The position numbers were made by a program, and so were the translations under genes. Positions 8,224 through 56,903 of a stretch of DNA of 64,000 bases are shown here, piece after piece. The stretch spans positions 63,691,022 through 63,755,021 of the forward strand of contig OV121081.1 of assembly GCA_921293015.1 (NCBI GenBank), written 5' to 3'. Numbering within the stretch: position 1 is the first letter of the stretch; each line of letters begins with the position of its first letter. The notes beneath the pieces are model-generated. The model searched no databases. It saw only the letters and a program-made list of their open reading frames with translations, and had not been told where the DNA came from. Origin of the DNA: Phorcus lineatus. Lineage: Eukaryota; Mollusca; Gastropoda; Trochida; Trochidae.

Positions 8224-9267
8224 TTAGAAAAACAGTTCAGTCTTTGGTAGTTTGAGTCGCGGAACGAGATCGGTGTCGATCTTGATGCTGATAGTGTCCA
8301 GATCAAGACCGTTGAATTCACCTTTCACTTTGGGGAAGTTCAATGAGTTCAACGGTTTCACTTTATTGCTTTCGACAGAACACAACTTTCCTTTCACCGC
8401 CTCCCACATTGGCCTGTAGAAGAAGAAATAAATGATAAGGCGTGAAATTTCATTAATATTGTTCAGGAGCCAAAACGCTGATGTGATCTTGTTGAGGATG
8501 AAATCCAAATCTTCCTTAGCAAACTCCGATGCGCAGTTGACGGTGACGAGGGGCACGAGGAGCACGGCGGACATGAAGGTTATCACGTACATCAGTTTCA
8601 CTTTCATCAGTTTCAATCTTCTGTCCTGGCCCATCTTAAAAGTTAAATTGGATGGCAGTGTCGAGAACCATTTTGAAACACGCCACAGGCATATGAAGTT
8701 ACATACCATAGGGATAACCGCGCATGCAACTGACACTAGCGGAATCCACTTTCCCTGTGTGCTGGACCCGATGGTTAAAACCCCATGGACGCAGCTGGAT
8801 GAGTAAAATCTGCCGGGAAGACCCATGAGCCAAAATATGACAATCGCTGACCAGGCAACCACGATCATGAGACTGCTGTTGCCCCTATGTAATGTTATCT
8901 GCACCTGACTGGAGCGACACACGGCAAGGTACATATTAATGTTCATCAGAGCGAGGAAGAGGGAGGAAGCGAATCGAACGCTCCTTGTCAAAGAAATGTT
9001 CACCAAACGCACCGGGACACTCACTGGACTGGCCAATGTGAACGCCGCGACTTGGAGCTGACCGATGAAACTGACAACTTGAGCGTTGAGGAGCAGGGAG
9101 CCGGTGGTCCCTTGTAGACTTGGTGTCCACAGGACCACTATGAACACCAACACACTTGCCACGGCACCAATAGTGTTGACACATATATCTAAGGCAAAGG
9201 ATGAGACTGTATCGTTGAGATTGTTTTCAAATGGAAAAGTTCCGTTACTGACGTCACACACGTTCAT
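8224..9267 (-). CDS. Intronless seven-transmembrane (rhodopsin-like) receptor
   Basis: A 347-residue protein on a single exon with seven hydrophobic segments at about residues 24-47, 57-79, 99-118, 132-151, 174-195, 223-243 and 257-284. The short N-terminus carries two N-glycosylation sequons (Asn8, Asn18), as expected for an outside N-terminus. Landmarks fit the rhodopsin-like class: Trp139 in helix 4, Pro186 in helix 5, and a helix 7 ending in IIY followed by FFFYRPMW. Several hallmarks are altered. The DRY position reads Cys117-Arg118-Ser119, helix 2 lacks the usual Asp, and the NPxxY position reads R-L-I-I-Y. The start was chosen as the first ATG of the frame, about 90 bases below a TATA box. 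The ligand is unknown. An intronless, diverged receptor of this kind would fit a lineage-expanded chemosensory or orphan family, which is inference. The tail after helix 7 is about 60 residues. Confidence 0.8.
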   Translation of the reverse strand: MNVCDVSNGTFPFENNLNDTVSSFALDICVNTIGAVASVLVFIVVLWTPSLQGTTGSLLLNAQVVSFIGQLQVAAFTLASPVSVPVRLVNISLTRSVRFASSLFLALMNINMYLAVCRSSQVQITLHRGNSSLMIVVAWSAIVIFWLMGLPGRFYSSSCVHGVLTIGSSTQGKWIPLVSVACAVIPMVCNFICLWRVSKWFSTLPSNLTFKMGQDRRLKLMKVKLMYVITFMSAVLLVPLVTVNCASEFAKEDLDFILNKITSAFWLLNNINEISRLIIYFFFYRPMWEAVKGKLCSVESNKVKPLNSLNFPKVKGEFNGLDLDTISIKIDTDLVPRLKLPKTELFF

Positions 9268-9349
9268 GATTAGCGAGCTTGAGGAAGGGACGGAAGATGC
9301 TGCTAGGGTGACGACTTTCTTCTCTCTGCTAGGCTCTGAGAAACTCCCG

Positions 9350-9357
9350 TATTTATA
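9350..9357 (-). promoter_or_regulatory. TATA box of the seven-transmembrane receptor gene
   Basis: On the minus strand the sequence ctataaatacggg gives a canonical TATAAATA about 83-90 bases upstream of the receptor ATG at 9267. A start site some 30 bases downstream would leave a 5' leader of about 55 bases, which suits an intronless gene with no upstream non-coding exon. Confidence 0.6.
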
Positions 9358-9360
9358 GAG

Positions 9361-31400: not shown

Positions 31401-34400
31401 AGCTAAATATAGATTAAAAACGGATTGATGTGAAGAATAGTAGCCTGCCGTTATTGAAATCGCATGCTTTTATAACTGACTACATGACATGTGAGAGTGT
31501 AAGATAAACAAGAACGTAAAAAGACATAAATACATCTACAGACATGTCTTTTTCATCCTTTTAGAGTCTTTCATAGATAGAAATGTGTTTAAAGATACAT
31601 TAATATTTTAGGTTTAAGAAAGTAAAAACTTGTTCGGGTGAATGGTTTTATTACGAATGCCTACGAGGTTTGTAAAGATGTTCATTTCTCATCATATCAA
31701 TAGTACCGATGAAACCATATCGTTATAGTGATATATTTGATACTGGGACAGTTACGACCTCTTCTCATTACTTGCAACACGCCGACGATAAATAATGGAG
31801 AAGGGTAGAGTGTAGAAGAGCAGAGCAAGGAAGAGTAAACCAGAGTTAAAAGAAGTTGAGGGTCAGGGTAGGGGAGAGGAGGGTAGGGTAGAGGAAGGTA
31901 GGGGGAGGAGGGTATGGGAGAGGAGGGTAGGGAGGAGGAGGGTAGGGGAGAGGAGGGTAGGGGGGAGGAGGGTAGGGGAGAGGAAGGTAGGGGAGGAGGG
32001 TAGGGGGAGGAGGGTAGGGTAGAGGGAAGGCTAGTGAAGAGAGGAAAAATTAGAGTAGAGTATAGATGAGTAGAGTAGAGTATAGAAGAGTAGAGTAGAG
32101 TATAGAAGAGTAGAGTATAGAAGAGTAGAGTATAGATGAGTAGAGTAGAGTATAGAAGAGTAGAGTAGAGTATGGAAGAGTAGAGTAGAGGATACCATAA
32201 TATAGATGAGTTGTGTAGAGTATAAAAGATTAGAGTAGATGATATCATAGTATAAATGAGTATAGTATAGACGAGTAGAGTAGAGTATAGAAGAGTAGAG
32301 TACAGTATAGAAGAGTAGAGTAGAATATAGAAGTGTAGAGTATAGAAGAGTAGAGTAGAGTAGAGTATGGAAGAGTAGAGTAGAGGATACCATAATATAG
32401 ATGAGTTGTGTAGAGTATAAAAGATTAGAGTAGATGATATCATAGTATAAATGAGTAGAGTAAAGAAGAGTAGAGTAGAATATAGAAGAGTAGAGTACAG
32501 TATAGAAGAGTAGAGTACAGTATAGAAGAGTAGAGTACAGTATAGAAGAGTAGAGTAGAGTAGAGTAGAGGATACCATAACATAGATGAGTTGTGTAGAG
32601 TATAAAAGATTAGAGTAGATTATATCATAGTATAAATGAGTAGAGTATAGATGAGTGCAGTAGAGTATAGATGAGTAGAGTAGAGGATATTAGAGTAAAG
32701 ATGATTCGAGTATAGAAGAGTAGAGTTTAGTATAGAAGAGTAGAGAGAAGACTAGAAGACATTAGAGTATGGAAGAGTAGAGAATACTTATGTAAAGTAG
32801 AGAAGATTATAGAAGTTAAGTGTAGTTGCGGACAGTTGTTCATGTATAGATGTCATAGGAGAAGATGTGAGAATACACTAAGTATCTGAAAATAGCCCCG
32901 GCATTGCATATCGCCTGCGTAGGACAAATTGTGGTGTCTACATTATTAATAAGTATAACCGAATCGTCGTAACGTTATTATGTCATCACAGTTAACTATC
33001 TTGAAATCATCTGGTGATATCATAAGGCTGGATGGCTTCGTGTAATGCAATAATTTTGATAGATAGCTGTATACGGTATAATATAATTTTAAATCAAACA
33101 TGGCAAAACTCTTTCATGATAGTAAAAGTATGATCGGAAAAGGTAGAGTAGTTGTAACTTGAATCAATACGTATATCATTACTAGGATTCTCGTACAGTG
33201 ACACAATATATATCTCTCAAAAGATCTGGAAATCTATTTTAGCACTACAGCTCATGTGCTGTATTGCGTAAAAGTATTGAGAGGCAATGTACACGCAGTG
33301 TGAAATATGCTTTAACTGATGTTTTGGAGAGATTATGATTTACATTATATTTGAACACTACCCTTTTCTCGACAATGCATAGTTATTGAATGATAATATA
33401 ATAGCAGTGTCAGAGGCCTTAAAACTTTTATCTAGATGAAAACAAGATTGTTCTCGATAAATTCACTATACATATTTTCATCTTGATTAATATAATCGCC
33501 TTATAACTATAAGAGACGACGGCCTTAATTATTTCGTTGGTACCGAAGACCTTGACAAATTAATTATTTGTTAATTGATGCTGTTATTCTACAATTATAC
33601 ACAACAGAGAGAGATCAATGTTAAAATGATAAGGTGATCGGTGATGTGATTTCTGCGGGCTACAGAAATAAAAGCCATACCATTTATACCAATTTCATGT
33701 TTTCACCGTACTCAAAATAGTGCACTTTACGTACCTTTGCGCTCTACATGCCACTGACGTCAGGACGGCTGCGACTAAGAAGGCTGTACCGATCGTCAGA
33801 CCTAGAATTGCTGGCCAGTATCTGTTAAATACGGTCTGTATGTTAAGTCTCTTCACCTGCAGACCAATATGTTGAGCTTCTGAATTGCTCGGAATGGCCA
33901 CAAAAACTTCTTCTTCGTGCACAGTACCATTTTCGTCCTTTTGCGATTTCAAAATTTTCACAATCTTTGTCCGCCCTGGTCCTGGGACGAATAGCCCAGC
34001 ATTAGGAACATTCACCCTTGGTCTCCCGTCCGAGCTGGAATTAACTGTTAGAACAGTTGGGTTAAGTTCAAACATTTTTACAGTCTTGGTATTCTCTTTC
34101 TTATCAGAGTTCACTTTCTTATCAGAGTTCACTTTCTTATCAGATGTGACTTTCTTATCAGAGTTCACTTTCTTCTCAGAGGTCACTTTCTTCTCAGAAT
34201 TCCCTTTCTTCTTAGGTTCAGTGTTCACTTTCTTGACTGTCTTCTTGACGGCTTTCTTGAAGTCTATATTAATACCACCTTTTTTCAAATCCATGTTGGT
34301 CTTCGATTTACCGTTACCTTTCTTCTTGGTAGGTTTCTTGTCATTTGTGCCAATCTTTAGAGCATTTTTCTTCTTATTTTTTTCAAAATCTGCAAGGATC

Positions 34401-37400
34401 TTCTTCAGGTTGACCCCCTTCTTCTTACCGCTTTTTGACTTGATGCTTGGCTTTTCCGCTTTAGATTTAGATGAAGGGTTGTTATTCTTCTTCTTTGGTG
34501 TGGTCGTTGTTGCTGCTGTTGTGGTGGTTGTAGTTTTACCCTTCTTCTTGTTTGTTTTTGAACGGTTTTCTTTCTTCTTACTTTTTTCTCTCTTAGGTTT
34601 AGAAGTCGTTGAACTTTGTTTTGTTTTTGGTTTGTGCTTGGAACCCGATGTTGTTGTTAGAATAGTAGTTAGCTTCGTTGTCACTTTTGGCGCTTTCGTT
34701 GTGGTGGTTTTACGTGACAATTTAGTTTTTTGAGTTGTTATAGTTGTAGTTCTTGCTTTTGTTTGCATTCGGGTTGGTCTTCTTGTCCTAGTAGATTGTT
34801 TGACCGTTGTTGTTTTCCTAGATGCTGAAGTCTTCCTCCATGCTGGCTTTGCTGTAGGTTTCCTCTTACCAATCGTGGTTCCCCTCCTCTCTTCAGACAC
34901 CTTTCTTGAATTGAGCGATGGTCTTACGCTTCTAGAGGTTGTAATGCTGTATCGGGGTTTGGAGGTGGCAGTTTGCTCATTCCGTCCAGATGATGTAACA
35001 TGGCTAGCTGAAAACGTTCTACTTCTTTCTATGGACGTTTTCTGTGTTTTCTTGGTTGCTACGGTGGTGCTGGAATGTAATCCATTTTTGTTGACTGTCG
35101 ACTTTAGTCCCTCAGTTGCATAATTGAACCGTGGACTGGGCGATCTTCCAGCAGCTGCTGAAGTCAAACGAATGCCTTCTTTGTTGTTATCGTCTTCATT
35201 TATAGGTTTACCATTGTACATATTGCTAAGAACATCAGGCAGGAATTCGAAAATATTCCAGCCCTTCTTGCCACCAGTAGCAGACTTATCAGATATTTTG
35301 TTATGTTTTGTATCTGATGTAGAATCAGAAGTGGGATTGACTTTTGTTATGTCATGATTCTTTTGAAGTTTTGTTAAAATGGCAAGTGTTGTTTCACCAT
35401 GTTCCTTTGACGTTGGCATATCAGTTGTTGCTGCATGTTTACCATTTCGTCTTGGGTTTCCTCTGCCAGTTATTGGGCGACGATTCCAAATATTTCTCTT
35501 GATCGTCGTTGAGACTGTCTTTTCAGTTGTATAAGATGTTGATACACCCGTCGTTCTTCTTATCCATGGTCTGGTAGGAGTTGGGCGAGAAAGAGAAACA
35601 ACTTTCTTACTTGGCTTCCCTCTGTCAAGAATAGCAGATTTAGCGGTAGTAATTAAATTTGAAGGTCGAGTTCTACGCTGCCACCATTTGGTTGGCCGGC
35701 CATTGTTTACAACCTTGACATTATAGGGCGTCTGAAGGGTTCTACCGGTCACGTCAACTTCTTTAACAGATGGTGTTGTTTGCCTCCTCTGCCACCACTT
35801 AGTTGGTCGAACACTAAACGTCACAGGATTGATGGACGGCGCCAACTTTGAATATGCTTTTTGACTTTGCATTGTTGTTGAATGAAACCTTGGTCTCTGC
35901 CATGACTTCGTTTGGGCGATATTTCGGTTAAAAGGTATAATAGGCGATTTGGACACGCTATCAGTCTGTTTCATTAGGACCACAGGGGTTGTGCGATGTT
36001 TTCTTCGTTGCCATTTTTTCGTAGGTATTACATTAATAGTGACATGTTCTTGAGGTGTAGCTGTTGACTGTACAGGTCTTTCCTGGTACGATGTGGTTTG
36101 CTGATTTTTCCTCCGCTGCCACCACTTAGTTGGTCTGTTGTCGATCGTGGTAACTCTGGTCACCTTTCCGTTACCTTGATGAGTCACATGTTTAGGTGCT
36201 TGTTGAGTTGTGGTCATCTGGCCCTTTCTTCTGTTCCACCATTTTGTTTGTTTGTTGTTCAGGGAAGTGGCAGTTGTAAGTGGTGTAGTAGTCTGTTGAT
36301 TTCTAAAGCGTGCTGTCGTTTTATCAGCCTTTTTTCGATTCCACCATTTTGTTGGTTCATACTTAACGGTTACGTCTTTTGTCAAAATCTTGGTGGTCTG
36401 TTTAATGTGGTGTTTTGAGGCAACGGTTGTTGACTGAGATTTTCGTCGCTGCCACCATTTAGTTGGTCTCGCTTTGCTAGTGACAACTTTAGGAAGAACC
36501 GTTGTTTGAAACTTGGAATAAGTATTGCGTCTGACAGGAACTATTGCCTCCGTATTTTTTTCCCTCTGCCACGATTTTGTTGCTTTTGTATTGACATGAT
36601 TGATCTTTGAGTTGGTTTGAAGAGTTGTTACATGTTTTGTCATATGGTTAGGTCTAGCGGTGGTAACTTGAACTTTCTTCCTTTGCCAATAGCGTGTTGG
36701 CCTCAGTGTCGGTTTTGTTGCTGTTGTTGTTATCATTGGCAGAGGCGTTCTAGTCCGTTCAGTTGTCTTTTCCATCTGATCAGTGGAAAGCAATGTGACC
36801 TTCTTTCTCTGCCACCATCTAGTTGGTTTAATACGAAGAGGAACCAAGGTTGGGGATGATGTCGTCATTTGATTATCAGATTTTACCTTTGCAGAAGCTA
36901 CAGTCTTTATGGTTGATCGGAATGTCTTCCGTTGCCATGATCTTGTTGGTTTCAACGTCACAATAGCAGAGCTTAAAGCAGGAGTTGACGGAGTTGACTT
37001 CAAGTGGTTTTTGGCAGAACGACTTGTTGCAGGATTCTTCCGACGCTGCCAGCTTCTGGTTGTCCAAGTGTTTGACTTCCTTCTGGTCACATGACTGATA
37101 GTTGTGTGATCTTTGTTAGAGGGAGTACGTTGTATAGGCGCTGATGGTCTTTGCCAGGATCTCGTTGCTTTGTTGTTTATCATCGGTGTTATCTTACCAG
37201 TATCACCCCTGTTCTTACTCTTGGACCGTGTTCTTGTAAACGGAGTGTTCTTTGTAACTGTGTCAAACGATTCATCTTCCCTCTTATCTGGCGTATGAGT
37301 TGAAGAGATGGTTTTCTCCGTTTTCTGGTTTCTATTCCTATATTCAGGTGCTTTGGAGTTCTTTTGCAAAATTTCTTGTTTCATATCTCGATGGTCATTC

Positions 37401-40400
37401 CACTTCTTCAACTTTGGTACAACCTTCTTCTGAAATGGTGTTTGTACGGTAGTTTGAAATCCATAGTCAATCGTTCTACCTGTTGTTATGATTCGTGTAC
37501 TCATCAACCCTTGCCATATGTTAGTGGTCTGCATCCGATTAATATGTCTTCTGCCAGTTATACGCTTCCACTTTCTTGTTGTTCTTTGGCCTTGTGATAT
37601 AACTTGTGTTGTCGGTCTCAATGTTGTATGCAAGGCAGGTGTCTTCGAGGATTTTGGATATCTCCGTCCCCATCTGGGTTTCTGGGTAACTTTGGCAACA
37701 GGTCTTTGATATTTCTCATTACCAGGTTTCTGATGTTGCTTAGTAACCGGTCTTTGATGTTGCCCAGTAACAGGTCTCTGTCGATGTGTTAAAGATTGGT
37801 GACTTGTCGGTGCTGGCAGTGTGGTTCTTTTCCGTGTTTGTTCTTTATCAAGTGCAGGAGACTTCTGAGTGGTTTGCGTGGACAAAGGTGTAGTCCTTCT
37901 AGGTCTTCTCCAGCCCCTTGTTCTCTGCTCCGTTACCTTTTTAGTTGATCTCGTTGTATGTAATTTATTCACTGGTGAACTTTTGGTTCTGCTTGATTCT
38001 CTCGTAGATGTTAGGGTGATGTCTGGTTGCTTCTGACCATTTTTGTTGATAAGTAAACTATGTCCAGACTCTTGTGATTTTGTTGTAAGTATATCTTTAT
38101 TACGTTGTCTTAGAGTAGCCTTGGGAGTTGTTCCCTTTGTAGGTTTTGTATACGGCAACTTCCTCTGCTTTGGTTTCCAACTTTTCTGCTTTGTCTGGAT
38201 ATTCATTTTTGTTACAGGTGCATATGATGTCTGTTTTGTGGTTCTGATGGTTGCATGGGTAGGAAGTGTAACTGGGTTAGTTCTCCATTGACCAATCTCC
38301 TCATGACGTCTGGTAAAACCTACATTTCTGTTGGTCCATGTTTTCTGCACAGTCTTCGCATATGGAGAACGATGGTTTGTATTCTGTTTCCTTCTCTTGT
38401 AGCCGTCTATGATATTGTACACTTTTCCTTCATTGACCCCAGCAGGAATGACCTTTAAGGTAGGAAGAGCTGGAGTGGTCTGTGGCCTTTGCCACCAGCG
38501 TGTGAAGTGCGTCCAGCGAGGACCTGAAGGTGTGCTTTCTGTTGCTTGTTCTGCTGGGTCTGCCCTTTCTGGGTTGTGTTTGTGGTCATTGGAGATATCT
38601 TTAGGTTTTTGGTTTGGGAAATCTGTAGTTGACTTAGGTGTATGTATTACTGGTGAAGGAGTTGTAATATCCGAAACAAACTTTCTCATATTATCCCGGA
38701 TTGAAGTTTTAAGGTTCTTTATCATCTTATTTTGCAGGCTCAAGTCCTTTGTAGTTTTACCAGGATGAAATGGACTTTTTGGTGATGTTGGGTTTTCAGA
38801 AGAATATTGGGAATGGATTGTTGGTACCTTCTTAGCTATCGCTTGATTTTTTATGACCTTGCCTTCACCTGTTGTCTTTTCTTTTCTGACACTGATTTTC
38901 TCGCCGTCACCCTTGCCTGTCCCAAGTGTAGATTTCGAAGGTTTGAAGGGGCTCCTCTGGTTTTTGTTTTCCTTTGTAATCTCAGCTTCTACATATTTTG
39001 TTGAGTAACGTCCAGACATATGTGTCTTCGTTGGCTTCAGTTTCTCCCTGTACACCTTTGGCGTGTCAGTTACAGTTGATGCTTGTGAATTCATCTTCTT
39101 TGGTGCTGAAGTGCTAGAAGCCGAGTATGTCCTATATCCACGGCCCCGGGCAAATGGTGTTGCAGATGTTTGTTTTGGTTTTGACCATGACGGAAATGGC
39201 TGCATTTTCCCTCTTTGCTTCACTTCTGGGTTGGTTGCTGATGGTGTTTTTGGCGTTGTCAAACTGTGATTTTCCTCTTTTTTTCTCTGTGTAGACTCGC
39301 CTGTATCTGAATTAACCAACTGATATCGATTCTTCAGAGTTCCTCCATATTTCCCTCTTCTATGTCCATGTCTTCTACTTCCAACTGGAGGTCGAGTCGA
39401 GATGGTGCCTTTTTCTTCATTCATCATGGAATTGGTAACTCGAGTTGGCTGACGAAAGGACGCCAGTTTCGTCGTATCTATATTATCCTTCAAATACATA
39501 TGCGTTTTTCGAGTAGCAGGTGTATAGTTGTTATTATGACGTTGTAAAGAAGGGTTTGATGTGAAAGGTCCTGATCCCTTATGGTTTGACGTTTTTGACT
39601 TCGGTTTCTTGAAGGGATGCGTAACATCTTTTGAAGATAGTTTCTCCTCACCAGATTTGATTGGTGTAACTTTTGATTGATGGGATGATTTTGTCGTTCT
39701 TGTTCCTGCCATAGTCGAGGCTTGTTTTCTCTTCTGACCATTTGGTTGATGCGCTGTCGGCTTGTTTTGTGTATCATCTGCATTGCCACTGAAATACCGT
39801 AAACCAGAAGACGATTGTGAGTTCCCATTGCGCATCGAACTACTCCCATCGTGTTTAGAAAATGGCGACTTTCTATGGAAGTTGTTTTGAGATTTTACAT
39901 TTGTTGTCCTCACTTCACCCTCTTCGTGTTTCTGAAAGTGTGTTGATCCGCCAGCTACAGGTGCTATATCATTCTTGTGAAGAACGTCACGACCATCTGG
40001 GCGTCTATGTATTGATTTTGATTGGTTTGGCCGTCTCTTTGCGTAGGTGGGTTTACCATAGGGCGATAGAGACTTACGAGGTTTGTAATTATCTCTGTCA
40101 CGTGTGGATTTTGTTTTTGATTGGACGCTTATTCTATCACTGGAGTGGTCATTTCTGTCGAGTTTAGAAATAACTGCTGGTGTATCGTCATTGTTTCCTC
40201 TGTCCGGAGCCACTGATGACATCTGCCAGCCCTTCTCACTCCACTTGTGGGCGATAACGTCGGTAGACATGTCCATAGAGGTTGTTGGTGGACGATCTGA
40301 CGTCAGTTTGGGAGTTGACCAACCAGCATGTGTCTGATCTTCCTTTCGGTCCCAGGGCCAACTTTTCCATTCTGGGGGAGGTTTCAGACAATCATCAGCG

Positions 40401-43400
40401 GTGAAGCAGTGCACAGACCACTCGAACTCCAATCTGAAATATAATGTTTTAAATTTAAACAACGTTTACATATCCATCGTGATTCTCTGATATTTCATTA
40501 CACATAACAACGCATCAAGGAAAATAGTAATTTTCAATATTATAAATGTTTTGATTCAAAATATGATTCATAGAGTACTAACACATTTGTAACAGGTTTT
40601 GGCCTTGTTTTTTTATTGAATTGATATCGATGTTAATGAAATTTACATTATTGATGTAAACATATTTATTTCTTGGAAGAATTTGATTTGTAAACAAGCT
40701 GCATTAGTTTATCTGAATACGGTTAAATTTATATCATTGATAATATATTTCTTAAATTGTTGTATCACAATGTAAATCTGTTTTTGTAGTTTTACCTATG
40801 TAAAAAGAATCTTTCTAAACATAGTTTTGAAATTAATATAAGAAGTCATTGATAACAGAAAGTTATTCATACTTTGGTTACTCAATATAATTCTGCCTAC
40901 AAATCCTTAGACTTGTTTAGAAATTATCCCATTGCCTATGGAGATACATTTGAAACATGATAAACCTTTTATCTTTAAAAACTTTTCTGTTTGGAAAACG
41001 ACTTACGAAGTTTTATCAGACTGTCTGTTGCCATTGACGGTGCTGCGCTGGTAGTTGCCCTTGTTGACAGTTCTCGTCAGTTCGTTCTCAAACCAGTCCA
41101 CCAACAACGTCGTGTGATCGTAGTCGTCGTAATCGTAGAAAAACGCGTTCATTTTCACGTGGCCCTAGAAGATCAAACAAGTTAACTTTAGCATCAACAC
41201 AATCCTTGCTTATCACATGGCAGGAATAAATAAACTACATGTAAGCGAAACCAGTAACTTTCGGCTTCGACATTCTACAAGGTCGCTGCAGGAAAAATAA
41301 ATAAACTCAAGCATGGTGCCACGTGTTTAGCAAATCTATTCCAGGTTTAAGATGAGCACATTCAGTTTGTTTATGCTTTGTCCTATGTTTAACATGGTCT
41401 ATATTCATTATGAATGAATAAAAATGATCAAAGCTCACCATTTTTGGCCATTCGTCAAAGAGGATGGTGAGAACCATGTCGGTGGTCTCTTCTTGGAAGG
41501 AAATGTCATTGGCGTCATACTTGAGGGGGCGGTGGAATAGGAATACATGGTCGTTGGCTCTGCAATGTGAAAACACTCATAATATTAAAATAAGATGTAA
41601 AAACAGCTTTTTCGTCATGAGTTGAACATCAGAACTGTAAACATTTTGACAAATAAGACGTTATGATGTTGAGACGGCCCGGCCATTGGAATGTGTTTAA
41701 TTTAGCTTAGGCAGTTTTATTCTTAGTAATGACAATATATGAATGTATTTGCCTGTACTGAAATCATTTTTCAAGCGGTAAAGGTGTTGAAGAGATTCCA
41801 TGAAATGCTCACTACATATCTGAAGAAGGGAAAATAGTTCTTGTAATGACATGCATTCACTTCATTTTCTGTTAATTTTTTATTTGAATTTTAAATGAAA
41901 GAGTCTAGTAACAAGACGCTACTGTTTCATTTCACTAAACAAACTCAGTCGAGACAGATCCTCTACAGATGAAATGTCATCCTCACATTTGAGAAATGTA
42001 TTTGCTGACATCGTGACGGCTAGTATTTGCAATACCGATATGACTACGTTTGTAATAAAACCTATGGCGCAGCTGAACTAAATGTTATAGACCGTCAATA
42101 CAAATTGCTAAACCCATAATAATTATCTATAGCAGATGAAATTGCCAAACTCTCTCTACTTTGGTCCATAGTCAAACGATAAGTTGATTATCAAAAACGT
42201 GTAAATGAGCCAGGGATTTGTAAGACATAGACTAGACAATCACAATCATAACGATGTAACATGCAGTGACCATGTCTATGTAGGTGTATGTTAACTCACC
42301 TTCCTAAACCGGAAACAATTAATCTCATAACATAGTCGCACTGGTCAGGGCATGTGGCGCCATCTAGCGGAGTCTGATCGCAACAACTGCCGTCATACGT
42401 CCGACCTTTCTTGTTCTCGAAATTCAGGAGTCGGATGGTTAGCACACCTCGTGCCTGTACGTGTGTGATCTGGGTAAAGAGAGTAACATGATATAATAAG
42501 ATGAGAATAAGGGAGCAAGTTATATCATATGATACTCGCGGACAAGACTTTACTGTCTCATAAGGGGATAAGAATTATTTGAATATAACATTATGTTTCA
42601 AAGCAATGTAGATTTAAATCAACAACAAGACGTCGTTACGTGTTCAAAGGTTCCAATCACATGGTGTCTGTGGCCACTGCTAAATTATAGAAAACCAAAA
42701 GTCTTACATTGGTAAATAATCAATTCGAGTGAAATTTGTGTCATTCCATGAGAGAAACATAATGTGAACTACTAAGATTAAAATAAATCATGTATGACCA
42801 TTAATTCTGAATACAAATAAAAGTTCCTGAATTAAAACAATGATTCTGTCATTGCTAAATCCTTTTGACTTGATAGAGAAACGTTCGATAAATATGTACA
42901 CATCAGTGGTATTCTTCCTCGAGCTGATCAATGATATAACACACAGAAGAGCTCATCAACATTTAAAGTGTATCTTACTTTTTCAATGTCTATATAAAGA
43001 GTGAGTGAGTGAGTTATTGTTTAACGCCGCTTGGGCAATATTTCAGCCATTAGCGGCGTTCTATATAAAGATGTTTGATAAAAAAAAATCATAAAATATT
43101 TTTCGTGCAAATGATATTACTTTAGAAAAGGATTTGTTGTGTATCTTATAAACAGTTGTGACGTAGTTTGAAATTAAATAAATGCTGGAATAGAATACAA
43201 ATAAACTTTGAGAATGGACAACATGTCACTCACATTAAAACATTTGAAAAATATAAGATTAAGACCAGCTTAAATTGATTAAAATGATAATTCTAAAAGT
43301 AACAAAATTAATGAGCTATTAAGGTTTTAACCCATCTTGAACCTCGAATCTACATAATCTTAGGCTACGTTGTTTAGTAATTATAAACCTCCTTAAATAT

Positions 43401-46400
43401 TGATAGAGTACTAATTATATGCCTATAAACCTGCAGACGTGAAGGTGATTCATGAAATTCGGATTGGTTATGTAATTAAATACACCGAGTCAGAAACAAA
43501 TTACTCAAAGCAAGCCATTCAATTTCTCAAAAGTTACTTTGCACAACATGTTATTGTGGAATTGTAAATACATAAAGGCTCAAACACACCATGTTGACAC
43601 AAACTGGCTTAAAATCAATTAAGCGGTGAAAAGAACATTGTTTTATGGACAGATGTTAAGTCACATGTTTTCCGAACATAATCAATTCGCTTAATCGGTA
43701 AAAATTCGCTCCAACGCTAACATTTAATGTTTCTGTCTGCCAAACGTTCTGTTTACCAATTGCAGAATATAGATTTCACATCGCCTTATAAACTGTTTCT
43801 CTTTGCACGAAGCGTGAGTAATCTTACACGACAACGGAAAGGAATGTGCAGACCAGCTGCTTGCCTTAATTATTGATAGATCATCACGTAAACCACCGGA
43901 GACCTACGCATGTTGTCTGTTTGCGAGGTGACGAAGAACATTAATATCCGGTAGGAAGAGTGAGCGCTCTGAAGAATATGCAATATCAACTCGATAGTAA
44001 TGTGATGCATCCCACATGAAGTCGTATTGTATTTGTATTTGACACGTGATTGAGATTGACTTAAGACACTGACTAATTCATATGAAGGACAGTGGGCAAC
44101 TTGGAAAACATCTTCTGATGAAATTGCAGTAATTCTCACTATGTAACATGCAATGAACACTTGCTCTTAGGAAACTGCTGACCATTTCAAATATAAAATG
44201 AACAATGAAAGAAGAAATATAATCGGCGAGTTATGCAGAAATCACTTGCATTTTTGTCAATAATAATCGCATGTCGTTAGAATAGAACGCTGACAAAGCT
44301 GACCGATGTCAGTGTTCTGATAAACTACAGAATACTGAACTATGTCCCGTGGAATAAATATTTGTGAAAGAAAGACTTATTAAAAATCTAATGAAAGCGA
44401 GTAGGATACCAATACAATGGTTAAATAACTATTTTTTTATAACTTCATACTTTGCTAATTTTTCAAGAATTTTATACACATAACATCCCAATTTACATGT
44501 CAAGATCCTACATTGTCACATCTGAAACACTGGCAATTGTTCTCGTGTATCATAACAGTATCACGTTAATAGAACGAACGCCTGCACTGGCTATTGTGTT
44601 ACAATCAAACTGTTTCGAGACTTACCAAATTATATCTACAATCGGATAAACTTTCTTTCTGTATTTCAGGTTCGGTTTCCTGGCATCCGGATTGGGATAT
44701 ATACATTTCACACTGTACCTGCAGTGGCTGAAACACTTGCATCACGCGATGTTATTGCACTACGTCATCGTTTACAGCGATGTCTTCATCGCGTCATTTC
44801 ATAAGTGAACGACTGTCATTTCCGGTACAGAGAGATTACGGATTTATCATGCAGGTGTATTATCATTATATTATTAAGTATATATATTGTAATTATAAGC
44901 TACTCAACAAAGATTATCTAATGCATATATATCATTGTTCATAACGTTTTCTTGTCGGTGTGTAGTGGAACTGTATAACGTTAGTGTCATTGTTGGAGGA
45001 TCGTCACTGCTGCTGTTTTCTGGTTTTGTCATGATTAATTGAGATTAGATATATACTTGTTGTTATGATTAATTGAGATTAGATATAGACTTGTTGTTAT
45101 GATTGATTGAGATTAGATATAGACTTGTTGTTATGATTAATTGAGATTAGATATATACTTGTTGTTATGATTAATTGAGATTAGATATAGACGTGTTTCT
45201 TTTATAATTAATTGAGATTAGATATAGACTTGTTGTTATGATTAATTGAGATTAGATATAGACTTGTTGTTACAATTATTTGAGATTAGAGATAGACATG
45301 TTGCTTTTATGGTTAATTGAGATTAGATATAGACTTGTTGTTATGATTAATTGAGATTAGATATAGACTTGTTGTTATGATTAATTGAGATTAGATATAG
45401 ACTTGTTGTTACAATTATTTGAGATTAGAGATAGACATGTTGCTTTTATGGTTAATTGAGATTAGATATAGACTTGTTGTTATGATTAATTGAGATTAGA
45501 TATAGACTTGTTGTTATGATTAATTGAGATTAGATATAGACTTGTTGTTGTTATGATGATAATTAATCAAACATAACATTGGATTTAATAAAGAATCTGT
45601 ATTTATTGTTTAGAGTATTTTTAAAAAATTGGTTCTACAATTGCACCAATTTATAAGGATAAATTGGTTTTTAACCTCTATTTTCTGTAACGTTTAATTT
45701 GGTGAATTAACATGTTGTATTATCAACCGATGATATATGGACCCATTCATTAACATTTGTATGTTCTTGTGTGTCATCAAGTGAGTTTCTATAATTCTGC
45801 ATAGATATTTTAATCATCATAGAAATAGATTAACAATCATGTAATTGTTTCGTTTAAATGTACAAAATGTATATTTTGTGTTATGAGTGAAATGAGTGGT
45901 TGAACGTTATATCTTTATTTAACAACGGGAGACTATCACTATCAAATAATGTGTAATATCAAAAGCAACATTAAATTTTTATACCAAATGAGCAATTAAT
46001 TAAGATTGAAAAGAAGTTAAGCTCAGCGACATTAACCGGATCCCTATTGTGATCTCCTGAATAACATCTAATACATTTGCTCTGTAAATACTGGTGAACG
46101 CGTTTCACAAGCACCCCTCGACCGTTGTTTTAAACTGCATCTACCGTTGATCGATGAGTCGGGAATGCAAATGGACATTGTCCTCTCGTTCTATTGATAT
46201 TCATCACTGTCCTGAGACACTCGACCATTGGTCACACAACCAAAACTATTTGTTTAAACCAAGTGTCTTGCTAATCCTTAGAACAGGAGATTTTAATTCG
46301 TTTATGGCAAAAGACGTACCCTTAACCTTAGAGAATCTTTATCAAGAACATATTACGGAGACCGATCTTCATGTCCAATGGGTTTTTTGTTTTATCGCTT

Positions 46401-49400: not shown

Positions 49401-52400
49401 AGCACCTCGTTACGATGTGCACAGTGGCTGTGTAAACAAAGATGTTCATTTCAACAAGCAGAAAACAGAAAAGTACATAAATTCAAATAATTCAAACCAA
49501 GTGAATGAATGATTGCCATGCAAATGTTTTTTAAAAGAAGATTTAATTTCCTGTTGACAATGGGTAATTTTTTTTTTCCATTTCAGTTATTCTCATTTTC
49601 ATTTTTTTTTATTCTTTGGACTTTATAAGTTGGTCCTCGGGGGTGTAGTAAAGGCAACATTACGCTGTTGGTGGAAGAACGTAACATATATAATAATCAA
49701 GAATTTCTAGTTTTATATTTTACGACTTTACGTATCTAGTATCCAACCAATTGATCAACGATTTAATGCATACACGTATATGGTCCCATAATTTCCAGTG
49801 TGAAGATGCATGCCTATCCTACAAATATGTTTGATAAAAAAAATAAAGAATTAAAGAATTGTAAGATAATTGATTTTTTCCATGTATATTTTTGTCTTTG
49901 CATGGTAAACAAACCCGAAGAGGTGAGTGAATTTACGTTTAAACTTTCTTTGTTTAAATCAAGAAATATTTCAATCATTCACTTTGCAGCCGGGACATAT
50001 CACCGCTCACATAAAAATAATGTTTTGAATAATAGTATAATAAGTACTGTAATCGAAAGAGACTGCACGCACGTTTAAATGAAATTTGCATTAAATGTTT
50101 TAGAATAGAAATATTGAGTTAAATTTTTTAAACAGAAATTACATTTAATTCAATTTAACTTAAAGACACATTCTGCAAGGTGTTATACTAAATCGTATTG
50201 ACGCAATGTTGTTCTCTTTATCAACTTAAGGCTGATTATTAAGTCTAAATAATCAAGCGCCGAAGCTCGAATCCTTTCGCTAACACACTAACTACATAAA
50301 AACCAACCAGAAGCGGAGGGCCAGAGGCTGTCCATACACAGAGATCTAGGGGGCAGTTTATAAAACAACACCTCCAGCCCCCAAATCCGCTTTGCTTGTT
50401 TGGGCAATGGGGATGTGACGCTACTTCGGGCCGGATTCACCTTTCACAACACCAACACCCCCTCCCCCAATGTTACTTGTCTTGATCTAGATCATGACGT
50501 TTCGTCTCAGTTTGTAGGTCATTGGTCCATGTACAAACAATTATATATATGAAATAAATGACAATATGTAGACATTTAACTCTCAGTTTATGGCAGATCG
50601 ACATTTAAGAACTAATTTGATAACTTCTGCTCAATTCATGAAACTACAACATCATACGATGATGAGATTAAGATAGAAACTATGTATCAACCGATACGTC
50701 TGTGGAGGATACATGAGACTGGGTAGGAAGATTCTGGATAATATTCTCACGACGCTGGTAACACGTACTTACACGATGTGTCTTAACAGTCGAGTTGTTT
50801 TCCAAACATTCTTTATTTCATTACTGTTTGTGACATTTTGAAATTGAATTTGGAAATATGTTGGAGGTTTTTTTTATCAGTAAGGTAACATTGCCTATTG
50901 GCTGCGAATCATGTTAATAATGTACCCGAAAAACTTGTAAACAAGGAATATTCGCATACTATAGCTAAGAATATAGAATTGCTATGAAACATAACAAATT
51001 ATCACCCAAGAAGGCAAATAAATGCTGAGGCAATTCAAGACTGAACTTCACCATCATGTATAGCATGTTCACCATCATGTATAGCATGTTCACCATCATG
51101 TATAGCATGTTCACCATCATGTATAGCATGTTCACCATCATGTATAGCATATTGACCATCATGTATAGCATGTTCACCATCATGTATAGCATGTTCACCA
51201 TCATATATAGCATGTTCACCATCATGTATAGCATGTTCACCATCATGTATAGCATGTTGACCATCATGTATAGCATGTTCACCATCATGTATAGCATGTT
51301 CACCATCATGTATAGCATATTGACCATCATGTATAGCATGTTCATCATGTATAGCATATTGACCATCATGTATAGCATGTTCACCATCATGTATAGCATA
51401 TTGACCATCATGTATAGCATGTTTACCATCGTGTATAGCATGTTCAAGTTTACATTTAGAGTGTGCTTCCTGATATTCATAACGATATATTTATTTTTTC
51501 CGATTCCAATAACTGAATGGCATTAATGTACCTTGTAAATATTACCTCTGGCATAACTAAGATAAACCAAGCGCCCTATCCATATTTTAGCCAGGTATTT
51601 GCAGTTCATTAGTTCCAAAATAGACCTTTATTAAACTCGGATCACCTTGAGATGGCGAATGGTTATGTCAACTCTTCATGTTTTATGAATCCATGTTTAT
51701 TCAGTCCCTTCAGATATCCAGCCGGACGAAACATGTGAATACCTTGCAAGGTTAATATTTCAACCCTGACGGTGATATCCTCATTGTCAACAACACATCG
51801 AGCACTTCATATTTTGCTTCCACATCAAGGCTTTTTCATAAATGTTTCACTTTGTCGATAACATTGTCATTATATCTCTTTATACCGGAGATAGGCTGGT
51901 GGAGATCTCCTGGAATGCCGAAAGGCCAAATTGATAATCAGGTGGAAAGAGCGACGTGTTCAAGTTCTTTACTTGAAGCATTAGCCTGTGGTTGAATTAT
52001 GTTTCCATGGCATCAGAATGCGTCATGTCCATACAATGCACCTACCGACAATCAAACTGCCCGAAAATTTAGATTAACAAGATCCCATGATGTTTTGCAT
52101 TGTCAGCAAGAATACAATGTTTGTCTCCCATAATGAGAATGTCGAATCAAAGATACATTGAATATAGTTTCCAATTCTATTGTAATATGAATTAAATTAT
52201 GATATTCTTTATTCTAGTTATGTCATTATTCCTTATTCCATTGTTAATTAATCCAAAGTAAATAAACCACAACGAATGGTATAAACGTTTGTCACTTTAT
52301 ATTGTTTTTGCAATATCATGAATTCAGTTGCTGCCAGTCGAGTACTGTATGTGAATATCAAATATCGAATATATTTTTCAAAGTGTGCTGTATTTCTACT

Positions 52401-55400: not shown

Positions 55401-56903
55401 GAACTATGAAATTCTCGGCATATAATGCGTAAGGGATAAACATTGTATTATAACTTTCTTTCTCAAATAGTACTTTAAATGTGTGGATTGGTAAATAGAG
55501 GTACAAATTTTGAAATGATAAGCACTTTGATCGGCGTTTTTCTGGTGAAGTTTAGTGACCTAGGCACAAGGACATAAATCTGTTTAAGAGTATTGAGCAA
55601 AATAATAGCGTGCATCTTATTTTGGTTTACTGATACTATAACTATCATCTGAAGTTGTTATCTATATATTCCTTGTCATTATGACCTGATGTAATGAATA
55701 AAGAAGTTGTTATCTATATATTCCTTATCATTATCTCCTGATATAATGAATAAAGAAGTTGTTATCTATATATTCCTTGTCATTATCACCTGATATAATG
55801 AATAAAGAAGTTGTTTTCCATATATTCCTTATCATTGTCACCTGATATGTGTAATGTACTTCTTTTCCTATTTCTTCCTCTCACTTGCTAGGAAAGTATT
55901 TTTCATCGACTGTGTGAAACGATTTTGAAAATGATAAGAGTGGTGTGTGTTAAATATGCATTATAGTGTAAATTAAGAATTAGATGGAAAACCATGTTGA
56001 ATCTATCTCTCTCTAACAAATATTGTTATCAATATATTCATACACATGTGAATCAGTGGTTGATTCGGTCTTCACATCATGATATTTAAATCATTTAAGT
56101 GATTTCACCTATGCCAATTCTGGTTCCGTTTGATAAAGATGCTTCTATCTTCTCAGAGTTAAATTACAGAAGAACTTTTGATTTCACAAATATTAATGTC
56201 AGAAATATGAATTTTGTTTTCCCTCACTAAAACCAAAGAACATTGCCTAATGAAGATTGGATGAAACTAAATTCGAATTAAGATGCAATTTTTCCTAAAT
56301 CTTTCTTCTAGTTAATCATTTGATATGAACAGTGTCTGGTTCATTTTATGACAACTTAACTAAATTCGAAACACACATATAGGACGCTCTCTTGGTGTAC
56401 ATTAAATGAAAAACTTAGTTTCAAATACGCTTAAAGCGATAGATGCAATGTAACAATTCATCTGGAATCCTATTTGACAAGGCGATGTTCCTAAAACATC
56501 AAAACTGTTGAATGGATACTGGTGAGTTCAAGACGATCTAGTAATCTGCTATTGAAGCAAAGTGTTATAACTGATATTTGATTTCACTGATGCTAGTGTT
56601 ACAATAGACCACTTGTCTATTCTATCGTGATCAAATTTGAATCAACCTGTAATCATGTAAACAAACACCAAAGTACTGGCAACCCTCGACAATCAGAAAA
56701 TTAAATTCGAGTTATCAGAGAAATTAATTCACTCATTTAGAGAAATGAAGTTCACGAAAATACTCACAGTGATGATTATGTGAATGAAATGAAACCTTGA
56801 AGCAATGAAATCCAAATAAATCCTTTAAAATGGTAAGTCCAAATTGGATACTCACCTTTGATCCAAGGAATATCACACAACAGACGAAAGTCCGTAACAA
56901 CAT
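22290..56903 (-). CDS. Giant type I membrane protein with MNNL-like head and WW-box repeats (6 exons)
   Basis: Join of exons 56856-56903, 42300-42469, 41439-41559, 41007-41164, 33735-40433 and 22290-22419 on the minus strand. All introns are GT-AG and all phases match, giving 7,326 coding bases and 2,441 residues. Order: signal peptide (about 1-16); MNNL-like domain (about 20-181) with cysteines 45, 46, 56, 60, 175 and 181; Thr/Lys/Arg-rich region (182 to about 2285) with 15 WW-box motifs at about 1254-1793; a more ordinary juxtamembrane segment (about 2285-2370); a transmembrane helix (about 2371-2395); and a 46-residue cytoplasmic tail. The MNNL module is known as the N-terminal C2-like domain of Delta and Jagged, which bind Notch. 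Here no DSL domain or EGF repeat follows, so a Notch role is only a hypothesis. I do not recognise a named orthologue. Extra small in-phase exons inside the long introns cannot be excluded. Confidence 0.85.
23435..23525 (-). mobile_element. Retroposon 3' end with (TTA)n tail
   Basis: On the minus strand a segment gcgccttgagcatgcattcg leads to gcgctatataaataccc and then an att/tta repeat. The combination of a GCGCC-rich stretch, TATATAAAT and a (TTA)n tail is a common animal LINE/SINE 3' end. Only the tail end is present, consistent with strong 5' truncation. Confidence 0.5.
26827..27160 (-). mobile_element. TTAA-flanked MITE, family 1, copy A
   Basis: The left end is TTAA then aaggacagtagcacg; the right end is gcggctactgaccct then TTAA. 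The ends are inverted repeats and TTAA is the target signature of piggyBac-type elements. An internal segment (ggaaatggattcgcaaag at about 27010) recurs reverse-complemented in copy B at 54691, so the two are the same family in opposite orientation. No transposase is present; it is non-autonomous. Confidence 0.75.
27615..28009. mobile_element. 395-bp MITE with 55-bp inverted ends and 8-bp target duplication
   Basis: The left arm (27616-27670) and right arm (27951-28007) are long inverted repeats; both contain gaggtagctccgtcat on the same reading after inversion. The direct repeat acacacct lies exactly at both edges (27607-27614 and 28010-28017). An 8-bp duplication fits hAT-type insertion. 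The interior of about 280 bases encodes nothing. Confidence 0.85.
28500..28880. repeat. Degenerate long-period tandem repeat
   Basis: Two to three diverged blocks recur, each with an atctacaaa-type start, a gaccaa/ggccac motif with cattagggg-like text, and an ending such as ttttctattctgg followed by gatgaaaatag. The blocks are about 130-150 bases apart. Divergence is high, so the period is approximate. Confidence 0.35.
29968..29986. mobile_element. Solo end of MITE family 1
   Basis: The sequence gcgccattgccccttttaaa matches the right end of the family-1 MITE copies, including the TTAA-like edge. I did not find a matching left end nearby, so this is a relic. Confidence 0.35.
30152..30632. mobile_element. 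TTAA-flanked MITE, family 2
   Basis: The left end is TTAA then cgagccactccgtgag; the right end, reverse-complemented, is agagccactccgtgat preceded by TTAA. The element is about 480 bases and encodes no protein. An internal segment around 30310 (aaaaccggacagtggcgcgc) recurs at 61931, showing that the family is repeated in this genome. Confidence 0.75.
31855..32040 (+). repeat. G-rich minisatellite (gggtaggggagaggag type)
   Basis: About 180 bases composed of gaggagggtagggg-type units, with runs of three to five G separated by one to four bases. The plus strand meets the simple G-quadruplex pattern many times over; the transcribed minus-strand RNA of the giant gene would be the C/U-rich complement. 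Confidence 0.9.
32041..32780 (+). repeat. Purine-rich minisatellite (agagtagagtatagaag units)
   Basis: About 740 bases of agtagagtatagaag units, with a longer block containing gaggataccataatatagat repeated three times at about 190-base spacing (near 32190, 32390 and 32570). Open frames of Ser-Thr-Leu-Leu-Tyr type on the minus strand arise from the repeat and are not genes. Confidence 0.9.
33735..40433 (-). CDS. Exon 5: giant exon with basic stalk, WW-box repeats and transmembrane helix
   Basis: A 6,699-base exon contributing 2,232 full codons. The acceptor is tatatttcag and the first base completes a Ser codon with exon 4. It begins LEFEWSVHCFTADDC, the end of the MNNL-like domain. A long Lys/Thr/Ser/Arg/Pro/Gln-rich stalk follows, with local repeats: an 8-residue QRPVTxQH set near 37690-37790, the WW-box array at 35555-37170, Thr runs near 34500-34720, and a VNSDKK hexad set near 34085-34200. 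One RGD lies near 37205. The juxtamembrane part contains two sequons (Asn-Ser-Ser, Asn-Gly-Thr), and the helix is WPAILGLTIGTAFLVAAVL. The donor is CAAAG|gtacgt. Without splicing, the frame would run 12 residues further to a stop at 33695. Confidence 0.9.
34085..34200 (-). repeat. 18-bp (6-residue) coding repeat, VNSDKK type
   Basis: Six consecutive hexapeptides of the form V-[NT]-S-[DE]-K-K are encoded in exon 5. They alternate N and T and grade from E to D. The regular 18-base period suggests recent tandem expansion or contraction within the lysine-rich membrane-proximal stalk. Confidence 0.85.
35555..37170 (-). repeat. WW-box array: 15 copies of [KR]PT[KR]xWQRRK
   Basis: Fifteen cores lie about 25-45 residues apart, each a small hydrophobic/basic island in Thr-rich sequence. 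Examples are KPTRWWQRKK, RPTKWWQRRK, EPTKWWNRKK and IPTKKWQRRK. The Trp at the second W position is kept in every copy; the first W varies (S, Y, K, P). Spacers are unrelated in sequence. Two outlying relatives occur upstream: FTRWWQRPQ near 38490 and TRGWRRPRR near 37900. Confidence 0.9.
37690..37790 (-). repeat. 24-bp (8-residue) coding repeat, QRPVTxQH type
   Basis: Four to five consecutive octapeptides in exon 5 follow the pattern QRPV-[TA]-x-x-[HT], with the middle one degraded to QKPGNEKY. It is a second, independent short tandem expansion within the stalk, upstream of the WW-box array. Confidence 0.8.
40434..41006 (-). other. Intron 4 of the giant gene (573 bp)
   Basis: GT-AG intron with donor gtaagt after ACTTC and acceptor tatatttcag. 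AT-rich with nothing else visible. Confidence 0.85.
41007..41164 (-). CDS. Exon 4: MNNL-like domain, second half
   Basis: 158 bases, 52 full codons plus two bases. It starts GHVKMNAFFYDYDDYD and ends NRQSDKT plus a split Ser. In Notch ligands the corresponding position holds the WP-x-x-[FY]-x-L-x-[IV]-E-A-W-D strand; here WPKM at the end of exon 3 followed by HVKMNAFFYD aligns with it. A run of acidic and aromatic residues (DYDDYD) replaces the AWD turn. The acceptor is gatcttctag and the donor TTC|gtaagt. Confidence 0.9.
41165..41438 (-). other. Intron 3 of the giant gene (274 bp)
   Basis: The shortest intron of the gene, with donor ATG|gtgagc and acceptor cttctag. Phase 0. No other content. 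Confidence 0.85.
41439..41559 (-). CDS. Exon 3: MNNL-like domain, central part
   Basis: 121 bases. The first base completes Arg73, then 40 residues beginning ANDHVFLFHRPLKYDAND and ending ILFDEWPKM. It corresponds to the central beta strands of the C2-like fold, ending at the Trp-Pro pair that is characteristic of MNNL domains. The acceptor is acattgcag and the donor gtgagc. Phase 2 in, phase 0 out. Confidence 0.9.
41560..42299 (-). other. Intron 2 of the giant gene (740 bp)
   Basis: GT-AG intron, donor GGAAG|gtgagt, acceptor attgcag, with no further features. Confidence 0.85.
42300..42469 (-). CDS. Exon 2: start of MNNL-like domain with Cys-Cys motif
   Basis: 170 bases, 56 full codons plus two bases. 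The key stretch GVLTIRLLNFENKKGRTYDG is followed at once by SCCD, then C-x3-C eleven residues later (ATCPDQCDYVM). This is the Notch-ligand N-terminus pattern: a strand ending in a-x-N-x-x-g, a double cysteine, then C-x3-C and an aromatic/hydrophobic strand. The acceptor tctttacccag and donor gtgagt are good. It is the strongest single piece of homology evidence in the gene. Confidence 0.9.
43001..43059 (-). mobile_element. 60-bp retroposed hairpin, copy 1, with 12-bp target duplication
   Basis: A 59-base insertion flanked by perfect direct repeats tctatataaaga (42989-43000 and 43060-43071). Read on the minus strand it folds on itself (acgccgct paired with agcggcgt) and ends in ACTCACTCAC. 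This is the pattern of a severely 5'-truncated SINE/LINE 3' end with an (ACTC)n tail, a type common in gastropod genomes. Confidence 0.85.
45020..45550. repeat. 34-bp minisatellite with 139-bp higher-order unit
   Basis: About 15 units of 34 bases share the core gattaattgagattagatat plus agacttgttgttat. Two diagnostic variants, acaattatttgag and cttttatggttaattg, recur together 139 bases apart (45272 and 45411). A block of four units has therefore been duplicated as one. Confidence 0.9.
48374..48520. repeat. 74-bp tandem duplication
   Basis: Two copies start gaaacaaagttccattt and end near aagtctgcttca, exactly 74 bases apart with few substitutions, so the duplication is recent. Confidence 0.85.
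50255..50470. other. GC-rich island within intron 1
   Basis: About 215 bases stand out from the AT-rich surroundings, with C-runs (acaccccctcccccaatg) at the right edge. On the minus strand, which is the transcribed strand, this gives GGGGGAGGGGG. It has no open frame of note. It could be an unrecognised repeat or a regulatory element; nothing in the sequence decides. Confidence 0.35.
51050..51445. repeat. 21-bp minisatellite, about 18 copies
   Basis: Unit atgtatagcatgttcaccat plus c, highly uniform, with a gac variant (catattgaccat) scattered through and one 15-base short unit. The seven-codon period carries no stop in one frame of each strand, so frames of MYSMFTI (plus) and MLYMMVN (minus) run the length of the array. 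It lies in an intron and has no start or splice context; I do not call a gene. Confidence 0.95.
54552..54908 (+). mobile_element. MITE family 1, copy B
   Basis: The left end is aagggacagcagcgcg; the right end, reverse-complemented, is aagggacagtagcacg. The flanking TTAA has decayed to tttc and ttta. It shares gaatccatttccctgcc (inverted) with copy A and a ttgaccctctgaagat block with copy C, which establishes the family. Non-coding. Confidence 0.75.
55078..55137 (-). mobile_element. 60-bp retroposed hairpin, copy 2, with 10-bp target duplication
   Basis: A 60-base insertion, about 90% like copy 1 (43001), flanked by perfect direct repeats ttatcaaact (55068-55077 and 55138-55147). The same hairpin and (ACTC)n tail are present. 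Just upstream, 55021-55050 carries a partial duplicate of the flank and tail, so the locus also underwent a local tandem duplication. Confidence 0.85.
55651..55850. repeat. 52-bp tandem repeat, about 4 copies
   Basis: Each unit begins gaagttgttatctatatatt and ends taatgaataaa; four copies are directly adjacent, the last diverged and truncated. Intronic. Confidence 0.9.
56856..56903 (-). CDS. Exon 1: signal peptide
   Basis: 48 bases encode MLLRTFVCCVIFLGSK, a short basic-then-hydrophobic leader, with donor TCAAAG|gtgagt and phase 0. The ATG has a favourable context (A at -3). No earlier ATG lies in the same frame in the bases checked upstream. Cleavage may fall at GS-K or slightly later, after the VQA of exon 2. 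This exon is the least secure because it is short and 14.4 kb from the next. The phase match, leader character and position still make it the best candidate. Confidence 0.7.

Follow-up and report, generated by a model that had tools for sequence, protein, structure and literature searches.

An MNNL/C2 head without DSL or EGF modules: a predicted domain-loss derivative of the DSL ligand family in the gastropod Phorcus lineatus

Background

What becomes of the N-terminal MNNL (C2) domain of a Delta/Jagged-type ligand when neither a DSL domain nor EGF repeats follow it, and what could such a head still bind? The question is raised by a gene on the minus strand of a 64,000-nt window of the Phorcus lineatus genome (contig OV121081.1, labelled C1 below; assembly GCA_921293015.1), the window being the whole stretch of DNA that was analyzed and the reference for all coordinates given without a contig label. 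The model of this gene, read from DNA alone, has 2,411 residues and shows the homology and gene structure of a ligand-family member, with a giant basic stalk where the DSL domain and the EGF repeats would stand. A first-pass annotation of the same DNA had called its architecture unknown and had suggested either a Notch ligand or antagonist, or an MNNL domain recruited for another binding task.

According to the parts of PMC5538765 available to us, Notch ligands contact Notch through the DSL domain (site 2, on EGF11) and through the long loop between strands 2 and 3 of the C2 domain (site 1, on EGF12), a loop that is tied by a disulphide to strand 2. The apex loops of the same C2 domain are described there as a putative lipid-binding site, where calcium is bound by Jagged1 and Jagged2 and not by DLL1 and DLL4, Arg55 and His123 of DLL4 standing in the places of two Jagged calcium Asp residues. 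In those portions of the literature that were accessible, MNNL figures as a component of DSL-bearing Notch ligands that some of them lack, and four choanoflagellates are reported to have one of MNNL and DSL, not both (Richter et al. 2018). Among the matches listed for MNNL/MNLL, mollusc Notch ligands and DSL-lacking ligands, available in part, there was no protein of molluscs or other animals with MNNL and without DSL. The "DSL" of two shell-matrix papers, as far as their accessible parts go, is Datura lectin.

Gene model and domain assignment

All the motifs that had been listed for the head were recovered on the minus strand, namely GVLTIRLLNFENKKG, CC, C-x3-C, a central WP and a closing EFEWSVHC-x5-C, in exons with AG/GT borders. 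Four coding blocks (exons 2-5, Table 1) share one reading frame that stays open until the stop at 33697, the last of them (the stalk exon, 6.7 kb) lying within a 2,256-codon stop-to-stop frame. A signal peptide in frame immediately 5' of exon 2 was discarded because it has no Met, and in 42470-64000 a single candidate passed the combined filters for an ATG, a hydrophobic core and a phase-0 donor (donor score 8.0); it is taken as the predicted exon 1. Six exons had been claimed within 33735..42469. The head in exons 2-5 was confirmed, exon 1 fell outside that interval, and, as the frame may either end at the stop at 33697 or be spliced via a donor at 33734 for which no acceptor or 3' exon was identified, five exons were placed and not six.

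The annotation's proposal that exons 2-5 code for an MNNL/C2 domain is supported by the profile, the cysteine pattern and the intron phases. With the Pfam MNNL model (PF07657, curated cut-off 22.5 bits) exon 2 scored 30.6 bits (E 2.8e-7), over model positions 2-45 of 157 only, and the rest of the domain rests on a paralog profile, which was built from four divergent paralogs of the same genome with the window gene left out. This profile gave 49.0 bits for the whole head, 37.7 for exon 2 alone and 15.3 for exons 3-5 alone, while the best scores in 1000 shuffle controls were 10.8 bits for the whole head and 8.8 for exons 3-5; HHalign of the whole head reached an E of 5e-11 over 148 columns. The head keeps four MNNL cysteines together with the C-x5-C pair in a frame that is open over four exons, and we infer that it folds as a C2 domain. 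A phmmer search of the head against PDB sequences returned chance matches only (glutarate hydroxylases, E 0.41 and worse), because the head is too diverged for a single-sequence search; canonical MNNL sequences of the same genome readily matched Delta and Jagged chains in the PDB sequences.

Search for DSL and EGF modules

The statement that the stalk follows the MNNL domain directly held in the scans for DSL and EGF. A cysteine-pattern scan found neither DSL nor EGF patterns on either strand of the window, and a DSL family scan of the genome (958 Mb in 74 contigs) placed none on contig C1 among the 20 hits listed. Of 264 candidates the family scan scored 150, and it is not exhaustive, since the DSL exon of one paralog (C11b) escaped it. 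Applied to the paralog loci, the cysteine-pattern scan recovered DSL at 6/7 (the C7b DSL exon lies beyond the stretch scanned, and C11b was not among the loci given). It also detected EGF arrays at C5a, C11a and C37, and gave some false EGF matches in the low-complexity DNA of C5b and C7b. Exon 5 had no Pfam match at E up to 1, and thus no SEA domain was found either. What seems to remain of the first DSL disulphide loop is a stump, with C-x5-C vs C-x8-C; the stalk begins right after it, and the phase-2 acceptor of exon 5 is common to the DSL exons of the paralogs. Neither the DSL domain nor the EGF repeats of a DSL ligand were thus detected in the predicted protein. By the defining features of the family, the gene reads as a domain-loss derivative of the DSL ligands and not as a Notch ligand.

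MNNL genes elsewhere in the genome

The genome scan with Pfam MNNL (19/19 candidates scored) yielded seven loci including the window gene, and two further ones, C37:42030870 and C11:49747350 (C11b), were added by protein search and reading, which makes nine in total. A DSL exon on the same strand lies within 54 kb at 8/8 other MNNL loci, seven times by family hit (C7a, C7b, C12, C5a, C5b, C11a, C37) and at C11b by reading; that of C7b is 54 kb from the MNNL exon and linked by position only. EGF repeats were found by Pfam in C5a, C11a and C37 and by reading in C11b, where a Cys-rich frame of 963 residues was read as EGF by eye.

The junction phases of the window gene (0, 2, 0, 2) are identical at 4/4 junctions in C5a, C5b and C11a, and those of C37, whose exon 3 was not found, agree at all three junctions read. 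In the divergent paralogs the DSL exon follows the acceptor at which the giant exon of the window gene begins. In the canonical genes C7a and C12 an intron is missing at the second of these places and the MNNL exon continues as far as the WP; the DSL exon of C12 appears to be entered at phase 1. In a midpoint-rooted tree of 11 rows (C11b left out), five divergent rows (the window gene, C5a, C5b, C11a and C37) split from six canonical ones with a support of 98/100.

The closest paralog is C37, which aligns with 47 residues of exon 2 at 40 percent identity. Its order is MNNL, DSL and EGF, after which a single frame stays open for 17,591 residues and 52.8 kb (42025072-41972300, minus strand); this frame contains ~124 copies of a 128-residue acidic Ser/Thr repeat, 97-98 percent alike in DNA, and ends in a basic Tyr-rich tail. 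The net charge is -2657 over the last 17,211 residues, a density of -0.154 per residue vs +0.150 in the window stalk, and no transmembrane-like segment was seen in the frame past its first, probably intronic, residues.

Receptor and calcium sites

Residue columns were taken from an 11-sequence MAFFT alignment. In the window protein, those of Jagged1 Cys78 and Cys92, which by their position would be the strand-2/loop disulphide pair holding the EGF12-binding loop, carry I and L; wherever another row has a letter in these columns it is C, and C37 has a gap at 92. The two calcium Asp columns at which DLL4 has Arg55 and His123 are those of Jagged1 D72 and D140. At D72 the window protein and the four other divergent rows have D, and the Delta-type rows R or K; at D140, D is found in 4/4 other divergent rows, H in the Delta-type ones and F in the window row. 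Counted from the start of exon 4, D is found at positions 11 and 13 in 5/5 divergent genes read (exon 4 of C11b was not read); the two canonical genes of the genome have H at position 11, their exon starts being judged by eye. Given the I/L at the cysteine pair and the D at D72 and in the exon-4 D-x-D, the receptor side of the head looks broken, while its calcium side is probably, though not certainly, intact.

Stalk and membrane anchor

The length and composition predicted for the stalk (about 2,190 residues, Thr/Lys/Arg-rich) were close to those measured (2,189 residues; T 14.9, K 13.2, S 9.5, R 8.2 and P 7.0 percent), with S+T+P at 31.4 and K+R at 21.4 percent. The motif T[KR]xW[QNI]R is present in 16 copies, all except the one at residue 810 in a regular array, and in 2000 shuffles its mean was 0.02 and its maximum 1, a figure that overstates the surprise somewhat as the motif was picked after reading the sequence. 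Among the copies, Thr is encoded by all four of its codons, and the likeness is therefore kept at the protein level and does not come from recent copying. A 533-residue piece of the stalk matched nothing elsewhere in the genome, only the stalk itself, and the stalk exon had no relative in IMG/VR contigs. A prohormone reading was rejected, with only two RX[KR]R sites present.

A transmembrane helix with a short tail had also been foreseen, and the hydrophobic peak at residues 2371-2397 indeed lies inside a helix modelled by AlphaFold2, in blocks with a predicted local distance difference test score (pLDDT) of 84-93. The AlphaFold2 model of the last 141 residues is otherwise poor as a whole (mean pLDDT 59, predicted template modelling score 0.28).

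Table 1 Coordinates of the features of the MNNL-stalk gene in the window
Feature	Position	Strand	Description
Exon 1 (predicted)	56856..56903	-	Predicted signal peptide MLLRTFVCCVIFLGSK; phase-0 donor AAG/GTGAGT
Exon 2	42300..42469	-	First MNNL/C2 part: strand 1, CC, C-x3-C; phase 0 in, phase 2 out; Pfam match
Exon 3	41439..41559	-	Strand 2-3 loop and strand closing on WP; without Jagged1 Cys92 equivalent
Exon 4	41007..41164	-	Strand bearing the D-x-D motif (YDYDDYD); phase 0 in, phase 2 out
Exon 5	33695..40433	-	Final MNNL strand, stalk, transmembrane helix, tail, stop codon 33697-33695
Putative remnant of first DSL disulphide loop	40388..40408	-	C-x5-C, residues 175-181; aligned with Jagged1 Cys187/Cys196
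Stalk	33821..40387	-	Residues 182-2370, 2,189 residues; no Cys, net charge +328
Regular motif array	35558..37165	-	15/16 T[KR]xW[QNI]R motifs, spacing 35-42 residues
Short tandem array	34092..34210	-	Codes SDKKVN/T-type hexapeptides; 18-bp period, 6.6 copies
Single transmembrane helix (predicted)	33740..33820	-	About residues 2371-2397; hydropathy and AlphaFold2 helix blocks
Possible alternative donor	33733..33734	-	AAAG/GTACGT, score 5.7; use would swap the last tail residues

Other observations

Long minisatellite arrays occupy window positions 32051-32815, just 3' of the gene, as well as 45026-45549 and 51047-51446 in the predicted first intron. A repeat at 42999-43060 (gagtgagtgagtt...aacgccgc...gcaatat) is one that we take to resemble a short interspersed nuclear element of abalones and other vetigastropods. 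At 8227-9363 (minus strand) a 379-residue stop-to-stop frame had a weak 7tm_1 match (17.9 bits, below the cut-off of 30.5) and is perhaps a divergent gene of the G-protein-coupled receptor type.

Outside the window, C11b is a divergent MNNL-DSL-EGF gene that the genome scans with Pfam MNNL and DSL both missed; a protein search with it returned only C11b itself and the window gene (E 0.028). The C5a gene (C5:59359-59340 kb, minus strand) has an MNNL domain followed by four DSL patterns interspersed with EGF; further on come several frames that carry a repeated-looking domain of ~100 residues, three of these frames being without a Pfam match. The 52.8-kb open frame of C37 may be among the longest animal exons. 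On the mitochondrial contig C74 (COX1), genes named by reading run cox3-nad3-nad2-cox1-cox2-atp6 on one strand, with nad1, nad6, cob, nad4L, nad4 and nad5 on the other, presumably the ancestral molluscan order that vetigastropods and chitons have kept; at about 6298-9200 the contig carries nearly 3 kb of a simple repeat that reads as (MY)n.

Discussion

The explanation that we favor, and to which we give an even chance as a whole, is that the gene descends from the DSL (Delta/Jagged-type) ligand family and encodes a C2 head that works in a calcium-dependent way and makes little or no contact with Notch, carried on a polycationic tether. What is the DSL exon in its sister genes would here have become an exon that codes for the last C2 strand and the stump of the first DSL loop and then runs straight into the polycationic stalk and the transmembrane helix. 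The head would keep its calcium and membrane face and would have lost both Notch contact sites, so that it should no longer bind Notch well, although weak binding may persist. It could instead dock in a calcium-dependent manner on phospholipid or another non-Notch partner, with the long basic, Trp-dotted stalk projecting it away from the cell and possibly binding anionic surfaces itself, such as mucus, sulphated glycans, shell or cuticle matrix, or microbes. With the Notch-gripping parts seemingly gone and the head set on a charged stalk, another job for the head is probable, and recruitment to another binding task is the best-fitting of the options offered in the first-pass annotation.

Several observations weigh against this reading. 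HHalign of exons 3-5 alone reached only 47 percent probability, and a canonical-only profile (two sequences) gave 20.3 bits for the head and -0.7 bits, which is background, for exons 3-5; the second half of the domain is thus recognisable through the divergent relatives only. MAFFT aligns an F of the window protein with Jagged1 D140 and a D with D144; if the rows are instead anchored where exon 4 starts, at a homologous intron, D falls at D140 but Y in the place of D144. Classical C2 domains carry a D-x-D-x5-D pattern, the third D of which is T in the window protein. Splice sites of the paralogs were picked by eye among candidate sites, the 98/100 split is the sole well-supported inner branch of the tree (1/8), and the branch of the window gene is very long (3.99), its join to C37 being flagged as possible attraction.

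Among the other explanations, the idea that the stalk is the working part, a surface polycation of Arg/Lys and Trp motifs binding anionic polymers or microbes under a vestigial head, draws on the net charge of +328, on the 16 motif copies (15 of them regularly spaced) and on the use of all four Thr codons, which speaks against recent copying; we nevertheless consider it unlikely, since four MNNL cysteines, the C-x5-C pair and a frame open over four exons exceed what would be expected of a vestige. A role in Notch signalling fares somewhat worse. The annotation's Notch ligand or antagonist is disfavored by the missing DSL domain and by the Ile and Leu at the Cys78/Cys92 equivalents, and a decoy or cis-inhibitor, whose head would weakly touch Notch EGF12 and whose long tether would keep productive ligand from acting in cis or trans, appears distinctly improbable. 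The core strands of the head are kept by profile, and the C2 domain supplies contact site 1 in known ligands (in the parts of PMC5538765 available); the cysteine pair aligned with the EGF12-binding loop is, however, lost in the window protein, and site 2 was found neither by the family scan, whose listed hits include none on contig C1, nor by the pattern scan of the window.

We give hardly any credence to a conventional ligand whose DSL and EGF exons are used in a different splice form or fall beyond the assembled stretch. Distance alone excludes little, as the nearest DSL exon of C7b is 54 kb away, and the DSL family search left candidates unscored and overlooked the C11b exon; yet the stalk exon also encodes the last MNNL strand, in one frame with the stalk and at the acceptor that carries DSL in the paralogs, the DSL hits listed include none on C1, and the pattern scan of the window found no DSL cysteines. 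Two wrongly joined genes, or a decaying pseudogene, are similarly remote. The case is a single-genome one known from DNA, which leaves room for such an error, but the phase-2 acceptor is in register with that of four paralogs, and the 2,256-codon frame, the canonical splice borders, the intact signal peptide candidate and the transmembrane helix point to an intact gene.

Compared with known systems, the window protein shares with the Delta/Jagged ligands an N-terminal MNNL/C2 domain, the CC, C-x3-C and WP motifs, a last strand that closes on the first DSL cysteine and a single transmembrane helix, and differs from them in showing only the C-x5-C stump, in having no EGF repeat found, in the lost site-1 cysteine pair and in its giant basic stalk. 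The divergent paralogs C5a, C5b, C11a, C11b and C37 resemble it in their intron phases, where read, and in the exon-4 D-x-D of the four that were read; unlike the window gene, all five retain a DSL exon (EGF was not shown for C5b). With C37 it has in common an MNNL head and a low-complexity stalk of enormous size on a single exon, but C37 retains DSL and EGF and its stalk is acidic. DLK1, DNER and the DOS proteins of C. elegans are non-canonical Notch ligands likewise without DSL, which keep EGF or DOS parts and lack MNNL; the window protein shows the opposite arrangement. Membrane mucins have a signal peptide, a Ser/Thr/Pro-rich repetitive stalk, one transmembrane helix and a short tail as well, whereas the window stalk is strongly basic. 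The view that the architecture is an unknown one can be upheld to the extent that nothing alike was among the matches listed in the partly available literature, and is weakened by close relatives in the same genome that are divergent MNNL-DSL-EGF genes, one of them with a far larger stalk.

A more speculative and highly unlikely extension would make C37 and the window gene a duplicated and then split polyelectrolyte pair, the one presumably a secreted acidic mega-mucin of ~18,000 residues and the other a membrane-anchored polycation, whose sister MNNL heads and opposite charges would assemble into a surface gel, glue or shell matrix. If this were true, the heads of Notch ligands would have become structural parts of extracellular material.

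The giant-stalk sister gene C37 suggests that a ligand lineage moved into such material. The window gene would be a clear animal case in which MNNL was kept and DSL and EGF were lost, with the intron phases recording how this happened. It would separate the membrane role of the C2 head from its Notch role in evolution, and would be a natural experiment on what a C2 domain does alone.

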